Part shown: piece by piece, positions 20,032 to 27,274 of the stretch
Layout of the letters: every line of letters begins with the position of its first letter
Position numbering within the stretch: the first letter of the stretch is position 1
From: Thioclava sediminum
GTDB taxonomy: Bacteria; Pseudomonadota; Alphaproteobacteria; Rhodobacterales; Rhodobacteraceae
NCBI RefSeq assembly: GCF_002020355.1
Contig: NZ_MPZV01000005.1
Coordinates: forward strand, 186,001-250,000
DNA length: 64,000 bases
Direction of reading: 5' to 3'
The notes under the pieces: generated by a model
The model's input: the letters and a program-made list of their open reading frames with translations, nothing else
Databases searched by the model: none
What the model was told of the DNA's origin: nothing
Position numbers and translations under genes: made by a program

Positions 20032-20466
20032 TCACTCGGCCCGCTCGAACCGAACCGTCGGGTTGCTCATCAGCGCCTCGAGCGACCCGTCGAACGCGCC
20101 CAGCCGCACGAGGTCCGGCGAGTTGGCAAAGGGTTTGTAGAAGATCGCGAGATTGCCCCAAGGCGCATAAAGCGTGATGTCGCCCGTCTTCGGCTCGTAG
20201 CTGCGCGGCGCGCCGGTGGTGTCGAGCTTGCGCGGCAGATCGGCGATCTTCTCGATGCCGTGGTAGTCGCGCAGGGTCAGCTCCAGCGGCATGAGCGCCG
20301 CGAAATCGCGCCCTGCAGGGGTGTCGTCGAGCGTGGCGGTCAGAACCGTCTCGCCTGCGGTCACGGTGATCGGGATCATACTGTCTCCTTTCGTCTCCTG
20401 AGCGCAGGCCATGCTGGCGGCGACGCACAGCGCCGCGACGGGTGTCAGAAACTTCGTGAAGCTCAT
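20032..20466 (-). CDS. Exported cyclophilin-like fold protein
   Basis: 144 residues with an N-terminal signal peptide (FLTPVAALCVAASMACAQ). The mature part (ITVTAGETVLTATLDDTPAGRDFAALMP.. with LTLRDYHGIEKIADLP and GDITLYAPWGNLAIFY) matches the cyclophilin-like family often found beside aldo/keto reductases and cupins in oxidative or electrophile-stress loci. Isomerase activity is not assured. It is preceded at 20518-20561 by the composite LysR-type promoter element shared with its neighbours. Confidence 0.75.
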   Translation of the reverse strand: MSFTKFLTPVAALCVAASMACAQETKGDSMIPITVTAGETVLTATLDDTPAGRDFAALMPLELTLRDYHGIEKIADLPRKLDTTGAPRSYEPKTGDITLYAPWGNLAIFYKPFANSPDLVRLGAFDGSLEALMSNPTVRFERAE

Positions 20467-20517
20467 GGCCGATGCCCTCCTGCTGCTGGAGACAAATCTA
20501 TGCGCGATTGCGCGGGA

Positions 20518-20561
20518 GGATTACCCCCCGCGCAATACTGCCACAGATGAGCGGCACTCAT
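20518..20561 (-). promoter_or_regulatory. LysR-type box plus -10-like element upstream of the cyclophilin-like gene
   Basis: On the minus strand the box ATGAGTGCCGCTCAT (20561-20547) is a perfect ATGA-N7-TCAT inverted repeat with the T-N11-A core of LysR regulators. Exactly 37 bases from its first base lies GTAATCC (20524-20518), matching the spacing of the ATTAWCC element at four other promoters of this locus. The gene start is 52 bases further on. Confidence 0.7.
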
Positions 20562-20572
20562 CAGTCGCCGTT

Positions 20573-21772
20573 TCAGGCCTGGGTCATGTCGATCACATAG
20601 CGATAGCGCGCCTGCTTGTTCACGACCTTCTCGCAGGCTTCGCCGATCTGCTCGGGGGTGATCATCTCATAGGTGGCCGCGACCCCGTGATGTGCGGCGA
20701 AGTCGATCACCCGCTGGGTCTCGGCAATGCCGCCCGTCATCGAGCCCGCGAGGCTCTGACGCCCGAAGCCCATCATCATCCCATGCGCCCCCTCGATCGG
20801 GAACAGCGCGCCAACATTGACCAGCGTCTTGTCGAGCTTGAGCAGGTTCAGGAATTGCTGCATCGGATAGGCCACCGGAACGGTCGAGAGCATCAGATCG
20901 AAGCTGCCCATCTGGCTCCGCATCGCGGCCTCGTCGGACCAGAGATAGGCCTCGGCGGCGCCGAAAGCCTTGGCATCGGCGATTTTGTCCTCGGAAGTGG
21001 TGAAGACGACGACCTCGGCCCCTTTCGCCGCCGCCAGCTTCACCGCGAGATGGCCCAGACCGCCCATTCCGATCACGCCGTAACGTTGGCCGGGCTGCAG
21101 ATCCCAGTGATTGATCGGCGAGAAGGTGGTGATCCCGGCGCAAAGAAGCGGCGCGAACCCGGCCAGATCGACCCCAGGCGGGATGCGCAGCGCGAAGTCT
21201 TCCTTCACGACGATCTTCTTGGAATAGCCGCCATAGGTCACCCCGCCCGAGATCTTGTCCTCGGAATTATAGGTGAAGGTCGTGCCGTTGAGGCAGTTCT
21301 GCTCGCGGTCGGCCAGGCAATTGGCGCAGGTGCCGCAGCTGTCGACCATCGTGCCGACCCCGGCGACATCGCCCTCGCGGAACTTGGTGACTTCCGCGCC
21401 GATGCCGACGACCCGGCCGACCATCTCGTGACCGGGAACAAGCGGGAACTGCGGCATCCCCCAGTCGCCCTTGTAGGTGTGAATGTCCGAGTGGCAGATC
21501 GAGCTATACATGATCTCGACCACGACATCCTTCGGGCCAGCCGCACGGCGCGGGATCGTATGCGGCGCGAAACTGCCATCCGTGTCGAAGGCCGCCCAAG
21601 CCTGCACTTCGGAAGCTTCGAGCGATGCGCCGCCCTCTTGCGCGGCCGCTTGCGTGGCGACGCTCGCCGCCAAGGGGGCCGCGGCCAGCGCGGCACCGCT
21701 GCGCAGGAAATTGCGGCGGCTTTCGCCATCGCGGGTCAAGGTTTGGAACGTGTCATTGCAGGACTGGCACAT
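20573..21772 (-). CDS. Tat-exported zinc alcohol dehydrogenase (CAD/YahK-like MDR family)
   Basis: 399 residues. It begins with a twin-arginine signal (SRRNFLRSGAALAAAPLAAS) ending near AAAQEGG. The mature part is a complete medium-chain zinc dehydrogenase: SSICHSDIH and PGHEMVGRV supply catalytic zinc ligands, CGTCANCLADREQNC the structural zinc site, and GMGGLGHLAVKLA the Rossmann nucleotide loop, followed by FTTSEDK, which suits NADP. Relatives are cytosolic aldehyde reductases; export of one is unusual. It shares a palindromic promoter region with the divergent cupin gene at 22016. Confidence 0.87.
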   Translation of the reverse strand: MCQSCNDTFQTLTRDGESRRNFLRSGAALAAAPLAASVATQAAAQEGGASLEASEVQAWAAFDTDGSFAPHTIPRRAAGPKDVVVEIMYSSICHSDIHTYKGDWGMPQFPLVPGHEMVGRVVGIGAEVTKFREGDVAGVGTMVDSCGTCANCLADREQNCLNGTTFTYNSEDKISGGVTYGGYSKKIVVKEDFALRIPPGVDLAGFAPLLCAGITTFSPINHWDLQPGQRYGVIGMGGLGHLAVKLAAAKGAEVVVFTTSEDKIADAKAFGAAEAYLWSDEAAMRSQMGSFDLMLSTVPVAYPMQQFLNLLKLDKTLVNVGALFPIEGAHGMMMGFGRQSLAGSMTGGIAETQRVIDFAAHHGVAATYEMITPEQIGEACEKVVNKQARYRYVIDMTQA

Positions 21773-21856
21773 CTCGGGCCTCCTTTTTCGGGAACTGACG
21801 AAGAGCGCCGGAACAAGGGTGGCGCCTGCCTTTCAACATGCCGCGAAACGCGCCGC

Positions 21857-21929
21857 AGATAATCACCGCTTTGCGCACAGCATCCATGAATCCTGCTCAT
21901 GAGGCTTTCCGGCTTTTGCGGCATTAACC
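21857..21929. promoter_or_regulatory. Bidirectional LysR-type operator/promoter between the exported dehydrogenase and cupin genes
   Basis: The box ATGAATCCTGCTCAT (21886-21900) is ATGA-N7-TCAT on either strand. Reading rightward, ATTAACC lies at 21923-21929, 37 bases from the box start, 87 bases before the cupin gene. Reading leftward, ATTATCT lies at 21863-21857, again 37 bases from the box start, 85 bases before the dehydrogenase gene. One palindrome therefore appears to serve two divergent promoters with identical geometry. Confidence 0.75.
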
Positions 21930-22015
21930 CCGCGTCTGCGGTCCTTACCTCAATGAAAGCGAGGCCAGGGAGATCACGGCCTTGCCATTGAAACGCAATC
22001 CAAGGGAGACCCCTG

Positions 22016-22471
22016 ATGATCCGCACCTTCACGACGCTCGCCGTCCTTCTCGCCGCCCCCGCCGCCGTTGCGCAGTCGATGGAACTGACCCCGGCGGAGA
22101 GCCGCGCGGCCACGATCGGCAGCTCTGAGACCTTCACCGGCACCGCCCTCGTCGCCCCCGTCTTCGGCCCTGACATGGGCGATGTGAGCGCGGGCGAAGT
22201 GACCTTCCTTCCCGGCGCGCGCTCGGCCTGGCACACCCATCCGGCGGGTCAGAAGCTCGTTGTGACGGCAGGCTCCGGCTGGGTACAGGAACGCGGCCAG
22301 CCCAAACAGCTGATGCAGGCGGGCGACGTCATCTGGTGCCCGCCCGGCATCGAGCATTGGCATGGCGCGACCGACACGACCCATGTGACGCATTTCGCGA
22401 TTCAGCAGGTGGTAGATGGCTCCGCCGTGACTTGGGGCGAGAAGGTGACCGACGCGGATTATCTGGAGTGA
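22016..22471 (+). CDS. Exported cupin-domain protein
   Basis: 151 residues with a signal peptide (TFTTLAVLLAAPAAVAQ). The cupin core shows both metal-binding motifs: [16 protein letters not shown] with the two His, and CPPGIEHWHGA with the third His. It is a paralogue of the cytosolic cupin at 26123, matching over nearly its whole mature length, for example VDGSAVTWGEKV against [12 protein letters not shown]. Members are sometimes annotated as mandelonitrile lyase-like or quercetinase-like; the substrate here is unknown. Confidence 0.83.
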   Translation: MIRTFTTLAVLLAAPAAVAQSMELTPAESRAATIGSSETFTGTALVAPVFGPDMGDVSAGEVTFLPGARSAWHTHPAGQKLVVTAGSGWVQERGQPKQLMQAGDVIWCPPGIEHWHGATDTTHVTHFAIQQVVDGSAVTWGEKVTDADYLE

Positions 22472-22508
22472 CGTCGCCTGATCCACGGCTGAATAATCCG
22501 TGGACGTC

Positions 22509-22523
22509 ATGAACCACGCGCAT
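22509..22523 (+). promoter_or_regulatory. Probable LysR autoregulatory box
   Basis: ATGAACCACGCGCAT has the same AT-N11-AT layout and the same ATGAA left half as the boxes upstream of the neighbouring genes, and lies 24 bases before the LysR start at 22547. No ATTAWCC element sits 37 bases on, so it may mediate repression only. Confidence 0.5.
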
Positions 22524-22546
22524 ATATCGTGAGGGAGACCCGCCCG

Positions 22547-23476
22547 ATGGCGACACCAACATTCAGCGAGGCCTCCCTCATGCTCCGCGAGAATATCAAC
22601 GATCTGATCGCCCTGGCCGCCGTCGCCGAAGAGCGCAGCTTCACCAAGGCCGCGGCGCGGCTCAACGTGTCGCAATCCGCGCTGAGCCATACGATCAAGG
22701 CGCTGGAGCAACGGCTGGGGCTGCGGCTGCTGACGCGTACCACGCGATCCGTTGCGCCGACGCTCGAGGGCGAGGATCTTCTGGCCACGCTCAACCCCTG
22801 TTTCGAGATGATCGAGGCGCGGTTGCGCGCGCTCGACGACGCGCAGGACCAGCCCACGGGCACCGTGCGCATCGTCTCCACCGATTACGCGATCGAGACC
22901 GTGCTTTGGCCAAAGCTCTCGCCGCTGCTCAAGCAATACCCCTCTATCAATGTCGAGCTGGTGATGGATTACGGCTTCACCGATCTGGCCTCGGCGCAAT
23001 GCGATGCCGGGGTGCGCTATGGCGACAGCGTGAGCGAAGGGATGATCGCCACAAGGATCGGCCCGGACGAGCGGATGCTCTGCGTCGGCGCGCCGTCCTA
23101 TTTCGAAACGGCTGGCGTGCCGCAGACCCCGCATGATCTGAGCGAACATAATTGCATCAACCTGCGGCTGGCGACGCATGGCGCACTCTATGCCTGGGAA
23201 TTCGAGGATGCCGACGGGCACGAGATCCGGGTGAAAGTCTCCGGTCAGGCCTGCTTCAACACGATCGGGTTGGTGCAGCACGCGGCGCTCGACGGGCACG
23301 GGCTGGCGCTGGTGCCGGACCGGCTCGCCGCGCCCCATCTGGAAAGCGGCGCCCTGCAAGCCTGCCTCGAGGAATATTGCCCCTATTTCCCGGGATTTCA
23401 CCTTTATTACCCCAGCCGCCAACGCCCTTCTTCGGCCTTCGGCGCCGTGCTGGAAGCGCTGCGCGAGCGGGGCTGA
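22547..23476 (+). CDS. LysR-family transcriptional regulator
   Basis: About 309 residues. The winged-helix domain is typical: LIALAAVAEERSFTKAAARL, then NVSQSALSHTIKALEQRLG and LLTRTTRSVAPT. The effector domain follows (GTVRIVSTDYAIETVLWPKL onward, ending with a Pro/Tyr-rich tail). The start at 22547 has GGGAG eight bases upstream; a GTG at 22529 and an ATG at 22580 are alternatives. Placed inside the cluster whose promoters share one LysR-type box, it is the obvious regulator of those genes. Effector unknown. Confidence 0.9.
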   Translation: MATPTFSEASLMLRENINDLIALAAVAEERSFTKAAARLNVSQSALSHTIKALEQRLGLRLLTRTTRSVAPTLEGEDLLATLNPCFEMIEARLRALDDAQDQPTGTVRIVSTDYAIETVLWPKLSPLLKQYPSINVELVMDYGFTDLASAQCDAGVRYGDSVSEGMIATRIGPDERMLCVGAPSYFETAGVPQTPHDLSEHNCINLRLATHGALYAWEFEDADGHEIRVKVSGQACFNTIGLVQHAALDGHGLALVPDRLAAPHLESGALQACLEEYCPYFPGFHLYYPSRQRPSSAFGAVLEALRERG

Positions 23477-23520
23477 TCGGTCCCCTATTATCACGCTCGG
23501 GTGAATGAACGTGCGCATTC

Positions 23521-23564
23521 ATGCTTGTCACTCATGAGTGCTATAAAAATTCCGCCGATTATCC
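23521..23564 (+). promoter_or_regulatory. LysR-type box plus -10-like element upstream of the aldo/keto reductase
   Basis: ATGCTTGTCACTCAT (23521-23535) keeps the AT-N11-AT core and the TCAT right half; it runs into the perfect palindrome CACTCATGAGTG (23529-23540). ATTATCC lies at 23558-23564, 37 bases from the box start as in the other four promoters. The gene starts 94 bases further on. Confidence 0.7.
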
Positions 23565-23657
23565 TGAGGCGCATCTCGCACTAGATTGCAGGACATGAAC
23601 CGAAGCCGTGCTCTTGAAAATGAGGGGCGCGGCGCACTCCAATGCAAGGAGCCAGAC

Positions 23658-24521
23658 ATGATCCTGAACGAAACCCTTACCCTCCCCAATGGCGTCGAGA
23701 TCCCGAAACTGGGCCTTGGCACATGGATGATCGACGATGACAAGGTGGCCGATGCGGTGAAGGCCGCCGTCGAGATGGGCTATCACCATATCGATACCGC
23801 GCAGGCCTATGGAAACGAACGTGGCGTCGGCGAAGGCATCCGCAATTGCGGCGTTCCGCGCGACGAGATTTTCCTGACCACGAAGCTCGACGCGGGCATC
23901 AAGAACTATGCCGATGCGAAAGCCGCCATCGACGGCTCGCTCGAGACGCTCGGGCTCGACAAGATCGACCTGATGATCATCCACAGCCCGAAGCCCTGGA
24001 CCGAGTTCCACGGCGACGATGGCTACTTCGAGGGCAACCTCGAAGCGTGGCGCGCGCTGGAAGAAGCCTATGAGGCGGGCAAGCTGGGCGCGATCGGCGT
24101 GTCGAACTTCGAGAAGGCGGATCTCGACAACCTGCTCGACAACGCAAAGGTCAAGCCGATGATCGACCAGATCCTCGCGCATGTGTCGAACACGCCCTTC
24201 GAACTGATCGACTACATCCAGAGCAACGGCATGGTCGCCGAGGCCTATTCGCCGATCGGCCACGGCCAGATCCTCGACAATGCCGAGATCAAGGCGATGG
24301 CAGAGAAATACAGCGTCAGCGTCCCGCAGCTCTCGATCCGCTACGTGCTGCAACTGGGCATGGTCGCGCTGCCGAAGACCGCCAATCCCGATCACATGCG
24401 CTCCAATGCGGCGCTCGATTTCGAAATTTCCGAAGCCGATATGGAGGCACTGAAATCGGTCGAGGAGATCAAGGATTACGGCGAGGCGAGCATGTTCCCC
24501 GTCTATGGCGGGCAGCTTTAA
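23658..24521 (+). CDS. Aldo/keto reductase
   Basis: 287 residues from the ATG at 23658, which has AAGGAG seven bases upstream. It is a standard AKR barrel: LGLGTWMIDDD, then YHHIDTAQAYGNERGVGEG (Asp and Tyr of the catalytic tetrad), TTKLDAG (Lys) and MIIHSPKPW (His), and the cofactor region ending SIRYVLQLGMVALPKT. It would reduce aldehydes or ketones with NADPH in the cytosol, like the DkgA group. It lies between the LysR gene and the exported CMD-family gene and has its own LysR-type promoter element. Confidence 0.93.
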   Translation: MILNETLTLPNGVEIPKLGLGTWMIDDDKVADAVKAAVEMGYHHIDTAQAYGNERGVGEGIRNCGVPRDEIFLTTKLDAGIKNYADAKAAIDGSLETLGLDKIDLMIIHSPKPWTEFHGDDGYFEGNLEAWRALEEAYEAGKLGAIGVSNFEKADLDNLLDNAKVKPMIDQILAHVSNTPFELIDYIQSNGMVAEAYSPIGHGQILDNAEIKAMAEKYSVSVPQLSIRYVLQLGMVALPKTANPDHMRSNAALDFEISEADMEALKSVEEIKDYGEASMFPVYGGQL

Positions 24522-24532
24522 GCCAGACCATC

Positions 24533-24563
24533 GCACTGCCGGGCCTGTCCCGGCGGTGCCTTT
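24533..24563 (+). terminator. Possible terminator after the aldo/keto reductase gene
   Basis: GCACTGCCGGG and CCCGGCGGTGC form an 11-bp stem with one mismatch around a 5-base loop, followed by TTTC, 11 bases after the stop. The T-run is short. Confidence 0.5.
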
Positions 24564-24574
24564 CAGGCCTTTCG

Positions 24575-24618
24575 ATGAATCTCGCTCATGAGTGACTTGG
24601 CTTGATACGGCATTAACC
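24575..24618 (+). promoter_or_regulatory. LysR-type box plus -10-like element upstream of the CMD-reductase-cupin operon
   Basis: ATGAATCTCGCTCAT (24575-24589) is ATGA-N7-TCAT, and GGCATTAACC ends at 24618. Both blocks, and the CTCATGAG between them, are identical in sequence and spacing to the copy at 21886-21929. The first gene starts 57 bases on. Confidence 0.72.
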
Positions 24619-24674
24619 TGAGTGCCGCCTCCCCCATCTCTGAAGGACAAGATCAACCCGACAGGAGAGATGAT

Positions 24675-25436
24675 ATGAAAACCCGTTTTGCAGCTTCTGC
24701 TTTCGCCCTGATTGCGTCCTCGGCCTCCGGCGAGGCGCTCGATCGCACCATCCCCGACGCCGTTGGCCGCGCGGCCCCCGCGCTCGAGGCCTATTCCAGC
24801 AATGATCTTCTCGGCTCGGTCTGGACCGGCGAACAGCTGTCCATGCGGGACCGCTCGCTCGTGACCTTCGCGGCGCTGATGACCCGCCACGAGACAGGAA
24901 ACCTCGAGCGTTTCGTCGAACTCGCGCTCGATAGCGGCGTGACGCCTGCCGAACTGTCGGAAACCGTCACCCATCTCGCCTTCTACACCGGCTGGGGCAA
25001 CGCCACCGCCGCGGCCGAGGCGATGGCGCCGGTCTACGAGGCGCGCGGAATCGCCGCCGACAGCCTTCCCGGCGCAGAGGTCAATCTGCTGCCGCTCGAT
25101 GAGGAGGCCGAGGAATCGCGCGAGAGTTTCGTGCGCGGCACCTATGGCGACGTCTCGATGGGCGTGGTCGACAACACGCGCGAGCTTCTGTTCCGCGACC
25201 TCTGGCTGCGTCCCGACCTCGCGCCGCGCGACCGCTCGATGGTCACCGTCGCGGCCCTGATCGCGGCGGGCCAGCCCGAGCAGATGACCTTCCACCTCAA
25301 CCGCGCGATGGATAACGGGCTGACGCAGGAGGAAGCGGGCGCGATGCTCTCGCATCTGGCCTTCTACGCGGGCTGGCCCAAGGTCTTCTCCGCCCTGCCG
25401 GTGGCCAAGGACGTCTTCGAGAACCGCGCCGAATAA
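24675..25436 (+). CDS. Exported carboxymuconolactone decarboxylase-like protein with two CMD domains
   Basis: 253 residues with a signal-like N-terminus (TRFAASAFALIASSASG). Two similar helical domains follow, around residues 50-120 (RDRSLVTFAALMTR.. to HLAFYTGWGNATAA) and 170-245 (RDRSMVTVAALIAAG.. to HLAFYAGWPKVFSA). The protein has no cysteine, so it cannot be an AhpD-type thiol peroxidase and is closer to the decarboxylase branch. First gene of an operon with the reductase at 25448 (11 bases on) and the cupin at 26123. Confidence 0.8.
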   Translation: MKTRFAASAFALIASSASGEALDRTIPDAVGRAAPALEAYSSNDLLGSVWTGEQLSMRDRSLVTFAALMTRHETGNLERFVELALDSGVTPAELSETVTHLAFYTGWGNATAAAEAMAPVYEARGIAADSLPGAEVNLLPLDEEAEESRESFVRGTYGDVSMGVVDNTRELLFRDLWLRPDLAPRDRSMVTVAALIAAGQPEQMTFHLNRAMDNGLTQEEAGAMLSHLAFYAGWPKVFSALPVAKDVFENRAE

Positions 25437-25447
25437 AGGACCCTGCC

Positions 25448-26086
25448 ATGAAGATCGCCATTCTCGGATCTGGACTGATGGGCGCCAAGCTCGGACGGAT
25501 CTGGGCGCAATGCGGCCACGATCTGCGCTTCGCCTATTCGCGCAGTCAGGCCAAGCTGGACCGGCTCGCCGCCGAGACCGGCGGGCGGGCGACCAGCGTC
25601 TCCGAGGCGGTCGCGGATGCGGATGCGATCCTGCTCGCCGTGCATTGGAGCCGCATCGACGATGTGCTGGCTCAGGCCTGCGACATGGCAGGCCAGGTGG
25701 TGCTCAACTGCTGCGTTCCGCTCGATACGAGCAATAGCGATCTCGTGCTCGGCCCCAAGACCTCCGGGGCCGAGCAACTCGCCACCATGCGCCCCGATGC
25801 GCGCTGGGTGGCCACATTCAACACCTCTCCCTCCGAGAGCTTCGCACCGGTCTTTGCCCGCAAGGGACAGGCCGACCCGCCGCAGCTTTTGATCTACGGC
25901 GATGACGACGGTGCGAAGGCCGTCGCGCGCGGGCTGATCGAAGATATCGGCTTTACGCCGGTTGATGCGGGCGGATTGCGCACCGGGCGTTTCGTCGAGC
26001 CCTTTGCAATGGTCACCGCCGAGCTAGCCTATGGGCAACCCGGCGGTCCCGCCCTGACCTACCGTTTCGAAAAACTGCGCGGCTAA
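25448..26086 (+). CDS. NAD(P)-binding F420-reductase-like oxidoreductase
   Basis: 212 residues. It starts with the Rossmann motif IAILGSGLMGAKLGRIWAQ, followed by YSRSQAKL at the end of strand 2, which would favour NADPH over NADH. VVLNCCVPLDT and the VATFNTSPSESFAP segment are typical of the F420-oxidoreductase/ProC-like fold. Substrate unknown. Eleven bases separate it from the upstream gene, so it belongs to the same operon. Confidence 0.8.
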   Translation: MKIAILGSGLMGAKLGRIWAQCGHDLRFAYSRSQAKLDRLAAETGGRATSVSEAVADADAILLAVHWSRIDDVLAQACDMAGQVVLNCCVPLDTSNSDLVLGPKTSGAEQLATMRPDARWVATFNTSPSESFAPVFARKGQADPPQLLIYGDDDGAKAVARGLIEDIGFTPVDAGGLRTGRFVEPFAMVTAELAYGQPGGPALTYRFEKLRG

Positions 26087-26122
26087 GCCCGCGCTCCCCT
26101 ACCCCAAGAAAGGAGTTTTCAC

Positions 26123-26518
26123 ATGAAAATCATTCGTTCCGGCGCCAACGCCTCAATGCAGGGCCCCGAAGACTGGTTCACCGGCACCGTCCGCGTCGAT
26201 CCGCTGTTTCAGGCCGAAGAGCCCGGCCGCACCTCGGGCAGCCATGTCACGTTCGAGCCCGGCGCGCGCACCGCATGGCACACCCACCCTGCGGGCCAGA
26301 CCCTGATCGTCACCTTTGGGCGCGGCCGCGTCCAGCGCGAAGGCGGCCCTGTCGAAGAGATCAGCCAGGGCGATGTCGTGTGGTTCCCGGCAGGCGAAAA
26401 GCACTGGCACGGCGCCTCGTCCGAGACCGCGATGAGCCATATCGCGGTGCAGGAAAGCATCGACGGCTCGCCGGTCACCTGGCTCGAGAAAGTCGCCGAC
26501 GAAGACTATAACGGCTGA
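26123..26518 (+). CDS. Cytosolic cupin-domain protein
   Basis: 131 residues and no signal peptide. Cupin motif 1 is [16 protein letters not shown], motif 2 is [13 protein letters not shown]; all metal-binding His residues are kept. It is a close paralogue of the exported cupin at 22016 but without the leader, so the same activity appears to be placed on both sides of the membrane. The ribosome site AAGGAG lies eight bases before the ATG. Confidence 0.85.
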
Positions 26519-26593: not shown

Positions 26594-27274
26594 ATGCCCC
26601 GGCCGCATATCACTTGCCATATGATCACCACGCTCGACGGACGATTGAAGACCGAAGGGTGGCCCTATTCCGAAGACGAATTGCTGACGATCTACGATGC
26701 GGTCGGTTCGCGTCTGGAGGGGCAAGGCTGGATCATCGGTCGCGCCTCGCTCGAAGGCTGGGTGCCGCATGTCGAACCGATGCTCGACCCCGCGCCGAGC
26801 CCGCGCCCCGATCGACTGGCGGATCTGGCGGGACGCACCCTCGGCGTCGTATTCGACCGCAAGGGGCGGCTCTTGCCGGATACGGACGAACTCGAGGGCG
26901 ACCATCTGGCGATCGTGCTCTCCGAGCGCGTCGCGCAGGCCCATGTCGAGCGGCTAACAGAGCGCGGCATCTCGGTCGTGTTCAGCGGTCCCGAGGGAGA
27001 CGACATCGAAGGCGCGCTGAGCCGCATCGCCGAGGGGTTCGGGATCGACCGGCTGTTGCTTGAAGGCGGCGGCACCTTGAACGGCACCTTCCTCGCCAAG
27101 GGGCTGATCGACGCGACCAGCACCCTGATCCTGCCGGTGATCGACGGCAATAGCGGCGCACCCGCGATCTACGAACAAGGCACCGGCCCCGCGCAATCGC
27201 TGGAGCTGGTGCAGGCCGAGACGCTGGAGAATGGGATCGTCTGGCTCCGCCACCGCGTGAGCAGGGAAAGCTGA
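26594..27274 (+). CDS. RibD C-terminal / dihydrofolate reductase-like family protein
   Basis: 226 residues. PHITCHMITTLDGRLK at the start and the late RLLLEGGGTLNGTFLAKGLID are the two signatures of the RibD C-terminal (DHFR-like) reductase family. Such proteins reduce small heterocycles or carbonyls with NADPH; true RibD activity is unlikely because no deaminase domain is present. It follows a probable terminator and has no LysR-type box, so membership in the neighbouring regulon is uncertain. Confidence 0.8.
   Translation: MPRPHITCHMITTLDGRLKTEGWPYSEDELLTIYDAVGSRLEGQGWIIGRASLEGWVPHVEPMLDPAPSPRPDRLADLAGRTLGVVFDRKGRLLPDTDELEGDHLAIVLSERVAQAHVERLTERGISVVFSGPEGDDIEGALSRIAEGFGIDRLLLEGGGTLNGTFLAKGLIDATSTLILPVIDGNSGAPAIYEQGTGPAQSLELVQAETLENGIVWLRHRVSRES

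Follow-up and report, generated by a model that had tools for sequence, protein, structure and literature searches.

A conserved LysR-box promoter element and a proposed LysR activator regulon in Thioclava sediminum

The gene cluster and its shared promoter element

The window analysed here, a stretch of 64,000 nucleotides from Thioclava sediminum (contig NZ_MPZV01000005.1, positions 186,001 to 250,000), contains a gene cluster in which five promoters around a gene for a LysR-type regulator (22547..23476, plus strand; HTH_1 and LysR_substrate domains) share one composite element, ATGM-N7-TCAT-N22-RTWAWCY. To the left of lysR, on the minus strand, lie the genes for a cyclophilin-like protein (20032..20466; Cyclophil_like2, Pfam E value 6.4e-34) and a zinc-dependent alcohol dehydrogenase (ADH) with a twin-arginine signal (20573..21772; ADH_N, 2.3e-25; TAT_signal 19.9 bits, below the cut-off of 22.7), and, on the plus strand, that for cupin A (22016..22471), a (R)-mandelonitrile-lyase-like protein (NF049940, 160.8 bits with a cut-off of 140) whose N-terminus includes a stretch that, judged by eye, is signal-like. 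To the right, on the plus strand, lysR is followed by a DkgA/DkgB-like aldo/keto reductase gene (23658..24521) and by a presumed operon (24675..26518), inferred from spacing, which encodes a carboxymuconolactone-decarboxylase-family (CMD) protein, an F420_oxidored/NAD-binding protein, and cupin B, a member of the same NCBIfam (R)-mandelonitrile-lyase family as cupin A. The gene identities given in an original prediction for this stretch agree with Pfam. A RibD_C-type reductase gene (26594-27274) follows cupin B, and a RibD homologue in 10 other loci has its own copy of the element.

The five sites were confirmed by pattern scan at the predicted coordinates, 20561-20518 (-), 21900-21857 (-), 21886-21929 (+), 23521-23564 (+), and 24575-24618 (+), and were scored with the position matrix described below. 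The cyclophilin-like gene is preceded by the box ATGAGTGCCGCTCAT (20547..20561, minus strand; 28.9 bits) and the second block GTAATCC (20518..20524, minus strand), the aldo/keto reductase gene by ATGCTTGTCACTCAT (23521..23535, plus strand; 34.9 bits) and ATTATCC (23558..23564, plus strand), and the CMD operon by ATGAATCTCGCTCAT (24575..24589, plus strand; 41.3 bits) and ATTAACC (24612..24618, plus strand). The divergent ADH and cupin A promoters have a single palindromic box in common (21886..21900; 35.9 bits on the minus strand and 34.3 bits on the plus strand), with the second blocks ATTATCT (21857..21863, minus strand) and ATTAACC (21923..21929, plus strand) on either side. Because this pair shares one box, the five promoters stand as predicted whilst the five separate boxes become four. 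A further, related box, ATGAACCACGCGCAT (22509..22523; 13.4 bits), which lacks the N22 spacing and had been overlooked, lies over the promoter of lysR itself.

The pattern matches the window exactly five times, all within the 4.1 kb cluster, and none of 100 dinucleotide shuffles of the sequence contained any match. Across the whole genome (4,128,131 bases) the same five sites are the only matches, and the pattern read backwards has none. With up to two mismatches tolerated, five sites were found with none, no site with one, and 26 with two, the reversed control giving five. The genome itself was scanned with patterns throughout, and the matrix was applied to extracted loci; among 25 of the 26 two-mismatch loci (3 kb each) only L132 exceeded 11 bits (18.3), compared with 28.9-41.3 bits for the sites in the window. 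ATGA-N7-TCAT alone occurs at 15 places in the genome, three of them in the cluster, with a top matrix score of 16.3 bits among the other 12 (3 kb each), and extending it by NNNTG leaves only three sites, all in the cluster. A regulon scattered over the genome was considered and rejected, with the box places outside the cluster scoring low.

Conservation of the element with the LysR gene

Within the genus, a LysR protein at least 84% identical to that of the window is found in five of 16 genomes (G000, G006, G010, G012, and G014), and the strict element is found in exactly those five; the LysR of Thioclava sp. JE_KL1 is 100% identical. Further afield, 66 loci were fetched around LysR relatives, of which 33 hold 44 strict sites. 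When the gap between box and RTWAWCY was allowed to vary from 0 to 79 bases, 44 of 61 pairs fell at a gap of 22, with at most two at any other. The position matrix was grown iteratively from these 44 sites; a first-round matrix from the strict sites alone found 165 sites and none in the control, and the grown matrix found 252 sites above 13 bits compared with one in the reversed control. Above 20 bits there are 192 sites spread over all 47 loci whose LysR is at least 70% identical, 11 sites in eight of 10 loci at 45-70% identity, one in the eight loci below 45%, and none in the reversed and three simulated controls, these counts not being independent of training, as the matrix was trained on the very loci scored.

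The sites also precede homologues of the genes that they precede in the window. When the count is restricted to homologues that have 260 bases of upstream sequence and lie in loci whose LysR is at least 70% identical, a site precedes 39 of 39 CMD, six of six ADH, 17 of 19 aldo/keto reductase, and 27 of 38 cyclophilin-like genes.

Several observations weigh against so tight an association. Of the 74 homologues of one or other cupin, 33 have a site, as do five of 40 F420_oxidored homologues, low counts that operon-internal genes and paralogues may explain. The genome G054 encodes a 76% identical LysR and lacks the strict element, and locus L090, where the LysR match is split (best segment 76% identity), has no site above 20 bits. 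Conversely, eight of 85 genomes outside the genus hold nine strict matches (the reversed control gave one in all 101 genomes), with matrix scores from -2.0 to 24.6 and three above 20 bits (L006, L008, and L013), such that either LysR carriers are not the only genomes with the element or chance sites can on occasion score above 20 bits. We have treated these nine matches as mostly background; two of them occur in G085 together with a 48% identical LysR homologue, far apart on the contig. Finally, the exact box lies beside lysR in 13 of 26 loci of distant homologues (45-70% identity).

Homologues at 51-60% identity from Ensifer, Budvicia, other Enterobacterales, and Ancylobacter (L073, L075-L077, L079, and L081-L083) likewise keep ATGA-N7-TCAT near lysR, with differing flanks, often TCATAGGT or TCATAAGT. 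Because these homologues keep the box with other flanks, the core of the box may predate the promoter module of the Rhodobacterales.

Taken together, the element is real and conserved, and very probably regulatory. The proposal that a single LysR protein, that encoded at 22547, serves all five promoters draws strong support from the co-occurrence within the genus, the 47 of 47 orthologue loci, and the sites upstream of target homologues, and the protein probably controls all five.

The genes downstream of 189 sites scoring at least 22 bits in 54 loci, with start codons sought 55-330 bases past the box, comprise 41 CMD, 33 cyclophilin-like, 32 cupin A-like, 17 aldo/keto reductase, 10 RibD_C, seven cupin B-like, six ADH, six LysR, and five F420_oxidored genes, with 27 others and five sites without an open reading frame (ORF). 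Of the 27 others, some of which may be spurious ORFs, 21 were scanned, giving six [2Fe-2S] proteins with Fer2 and Fer2_2, four cytochrome P460 proteins, three alpha/beta hydrolases, and one each of MFS, GSDH, and lipocalin-like proteins. This mix of genes suggests oxidative or carbonyl detoxification, and the genes present point to stress from carbonyls, quinones, or other electrophiles. In relatives, the element precedes cytochrome P460 genes in L059 (9575-9684), L062 (9381-9480), and L063 (6876-6968), identified by Pfam in L059 and L063 and by 69% identity to the L059 protein in L062, where a divergent MFS transporter gene is also preceded by the element.

Promoter anatomy and the mode of regulation

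A profile of 134 non-redundant sites from many genera shows the ATGA-N7-TCAT dyad, with its T-N11-A core, lengthened by conserved flanks (ATT upstream and A-TG downstream) to roughly CATTS-ATGAG-N5-CTCAT-SARTG. ATTAWCC occupies positions 38-44 of the profile, and a third region with a preference for C/T, A, and T occupies positions 61-66, beginning 23-24 bases past the second block and resembling a -10 element. Positions beyond 44 played no part in site selection, and the third block is thus independent of it. Outside the selected region, generic hexamer scoring for a -10 peaks at start 61 (z 16.2), and 63 of the 134 sites have xAxxxT at starts 61-63, compared with 4-18 of 134 in 21 other three-base bins. 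The third block lies 16-17 bases after TTAWCC, which itself fits the -35 consensus TTGACA; the scoring for a -35 peaks at start 39 (z 24.2), a position inside the selected region, and is therefore biased. Furthermore, the earliest start codon among 151 classified downstream genes lies 84 bases from the box, a set that excludes the 27 unclassified genes (offsets 56-287), the six LysR genes (64-188), and the five sites without an ORF. Because of the third block, the spacer, and the start-codon distances together, we infer a transcription start near base 73 past the box start, so that the second block would fall at -35 and the centre of the box close to -65. LysR-type regulators classically have their recognition site at about -65 and a second element at about -35, an arrangement that the element follows when the third block is taken as the -10.

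In the window, the proposed -10 elements were read from the sequence at the corresponding position. Upstream of both the cyclophilin-like gene (20495..20500, minus strand; the third conserved block) and the aldo/keto reductase gene (23582..23587, plus strand) this is TAGATT, as in the JE_KL1 orthologues, and at the ADH promoter it is the weak CATGTT (21835..21840, minus strand), also kept in JE_KL1. The weak candidates TACCTC at the cupin A promoter (21946..21951, plus strand), a poor match to TATAAT, and CATCTC at the CMD operon promoter (24635..24640, plus strand) are proposed from position. Three points speak against this assignment, namely that three of the five window promoters have a weak -10, that four or more of the six TATAAT positions are matched at starts 61-63 by only 32 of the 134 sites, and that the second block scored as a -10 hexamer at start 37 gives z 26.8, a value biased by site selection likewise.

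These features are most probably those of an ordinary LysR activator regulon, with the box near -65, the second block as the -35 region, and autorepression of lysR. In the proposed mechanism, the LysR protein would bind the 15-bp dyad and its conserved flanks, centred near -65 in each target promoter at a fixed distance from the -35 region, TTAWCC, with the weak -10 16-17 bases further on. In the presence of an inducer, a LysR tetramer would contact the -35 region and recruit polymerase, so that the five transcription units of this small cluster, whose genes are of oxidoreductase type, would be switched on together.

In 40 of 47 orthologues at least 70% identical, the promoter of lysR itself carries a looser box, located 10-60 bases ahead of the start of LysR, with 0.02 expected in each by chance; the consensus around this box reads atAATc..TgGac.TcATGAgCc..gc.CATATATc. 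In the window (22492-22528) an ATTAT-like block in inverted orientation accompanies this box at a distance of 11 bases instead of 22, an arrangement kept in many orthologues; the inverted block may serve as a -10 or, one turn of the helix nearer, as a second contact. Whichever of CATAAT and TATATC is the -10 of lysR, a protein bound at the box would stand in the way of transcription, and autorepression is therefore predicted, with the regulator repressing itself through this related box.

The inverted block is also relevant to an alternative in which the second block serves chiefly as another LysR contact, an activation site that merely overlaps the -35 region. LysR proteins bind as two dimers, the weaker site lying beside the -35 of the target, according to PMC5002191, and the similar block beside the box of lysR would be consistent with such a contact. 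However, the second block has no visible dyad partner in the 134-site profile, and the same letters at the lysR promoter read as the -10-like CATAAT, making this a possible but less favoured explanation.

Some LysR proteins repress, and the palindromic LysR box would also suit a regulator that represses the five promoters until released by an inducer. This is unlikely, with the proposed box centre near -65 and the weak -10 elements, both typical of activated promoters, pointing to activation, and with only the box of lysR itself placed where transcription would be blocked.

The original prediction took the second block for the -10, in which case the box would overlap the -35 and the regulator would act from about -42. 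GATTAT and CATTAA do score well as -10 hexamers at start 37, and a TGA-bearing, -35-like stretch comes after the box. However, the third block, lying outside the region used for site selection, would be left unexplained and fits a -10 instead, the second block also fits TTGACA at start 39, which leaves a spacer of 16-17 bases before the third block, and no start codon of the 151 classified genes was placed less than 84 bases from the box. Reading the second block as the -10 is thus probably wrong, and we give that reading little credence. That the promoters are alike as recent duplicates, as the two cupins of one family might suggest, is highly improbable and disfavoured by the 134-site profile, which holds over many genera, with the N7 and spacer bases varying between sites whilst the box, blocks, and distances stay constant.

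The regulator and its relation to known systems

The N-terminal HTH_1 (3e-22) and C-terminal LysR_substrate (1e-31) Pfam domains identify the window protein as LysR-type, and its AlphaFold2 model (mean predicted local distance difference test score 86.0) has CrgA and AphB, full-length members of the family, as its top fold matches among solved structures. The protein contains seven cysteines, numbered here from the ATG at 22547. In an alignment of the window protein with 76 of 88 LysR loci (three near-copies were skipped and the other nine, by subtraction, have a stop in the translated match), all 49 clade members compared have C85, C152, and C273 and none of the 18 homologues at 45-70% identity does, and C179 is present in 49 of 49 and three of 18 respectively. 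Clade members have 5-8 cysteines per protein compared with 1-5 in the 45-70% homologues, and three of the 10 clade-specific invariant residues are cysteines, though cysteine accounts for only seven of the 303 residues scored. Tentatively, the clade could be a thiol-based electrophile sensor that arose within the Rhodobacterales and relatives and drives interchangeable detoxification genes through one rigid promoter module, a proposal drawn from comparison of sequences that we regard as speculative. AphB, solved in oxidised forms, was considered as a thiol-sensor precedent and set aside, no cysteine of the window LysR lying opposite an AphB cysteine in the alignment.

If the clade-specific cysteines do form a sensor, they would add a thiol-sensing branch to the LysR proteins and a likely function for the poorly understood cyclophilin-like, cupin, and CMD families. 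The LysR group to which the regulator belongs appears not to have been characterised and is found repeatedly in many genera of the Rhodobacterales; the cluster gives it a regulon open to testing, in which the promoter layout is exact enough for targets to be predicted from the sequence. The analysis also moves the second block from the -10 to the -35 region.

The closest parallels in layout are the LysR-type promoters of OxyR, IlvY, CynR, MetR, and GcvA, for which PMC5002191 describes a T-N11-A box, an element beside the -35, and a site at the promoter of the regulator. In that account one site lies at or downstream of the -10 of the regulator, and a less conserved site just downstream of the -35 of the target. 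In contrast to those systems, one box type here serves several separate and divergent promoters at the same fixed spacing, and the target genes and box sequence differ. YafC of Escherichia coli is the best NCBIfam match of the window LysR, and the cluster contains a DkgA/DkgB-like reductase just as E. coli has dkgB beside yafC; however, the match to NF040888 (143.9 bits) falls well below the cut-off of 470, and, with one mismatch allowed, there is still no ATGA-N7-TCAT box in the 4,001 bases around yafC of E. coli K-12. CrgA of Neisseria meningitidis (3hhg), which controls a quinone oxidoreductase gene and itself, is the nearest solved structure by both sequence and fold, albeit with 26% identity to the window LysR. 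No description of this regulon or motif was found in the literature searched, in which subscription journals were thinly covered. Our best view is that the system is of a well known kind, a LysR activator regulon, which is new in its details and widespread in the Rhodobacterales.

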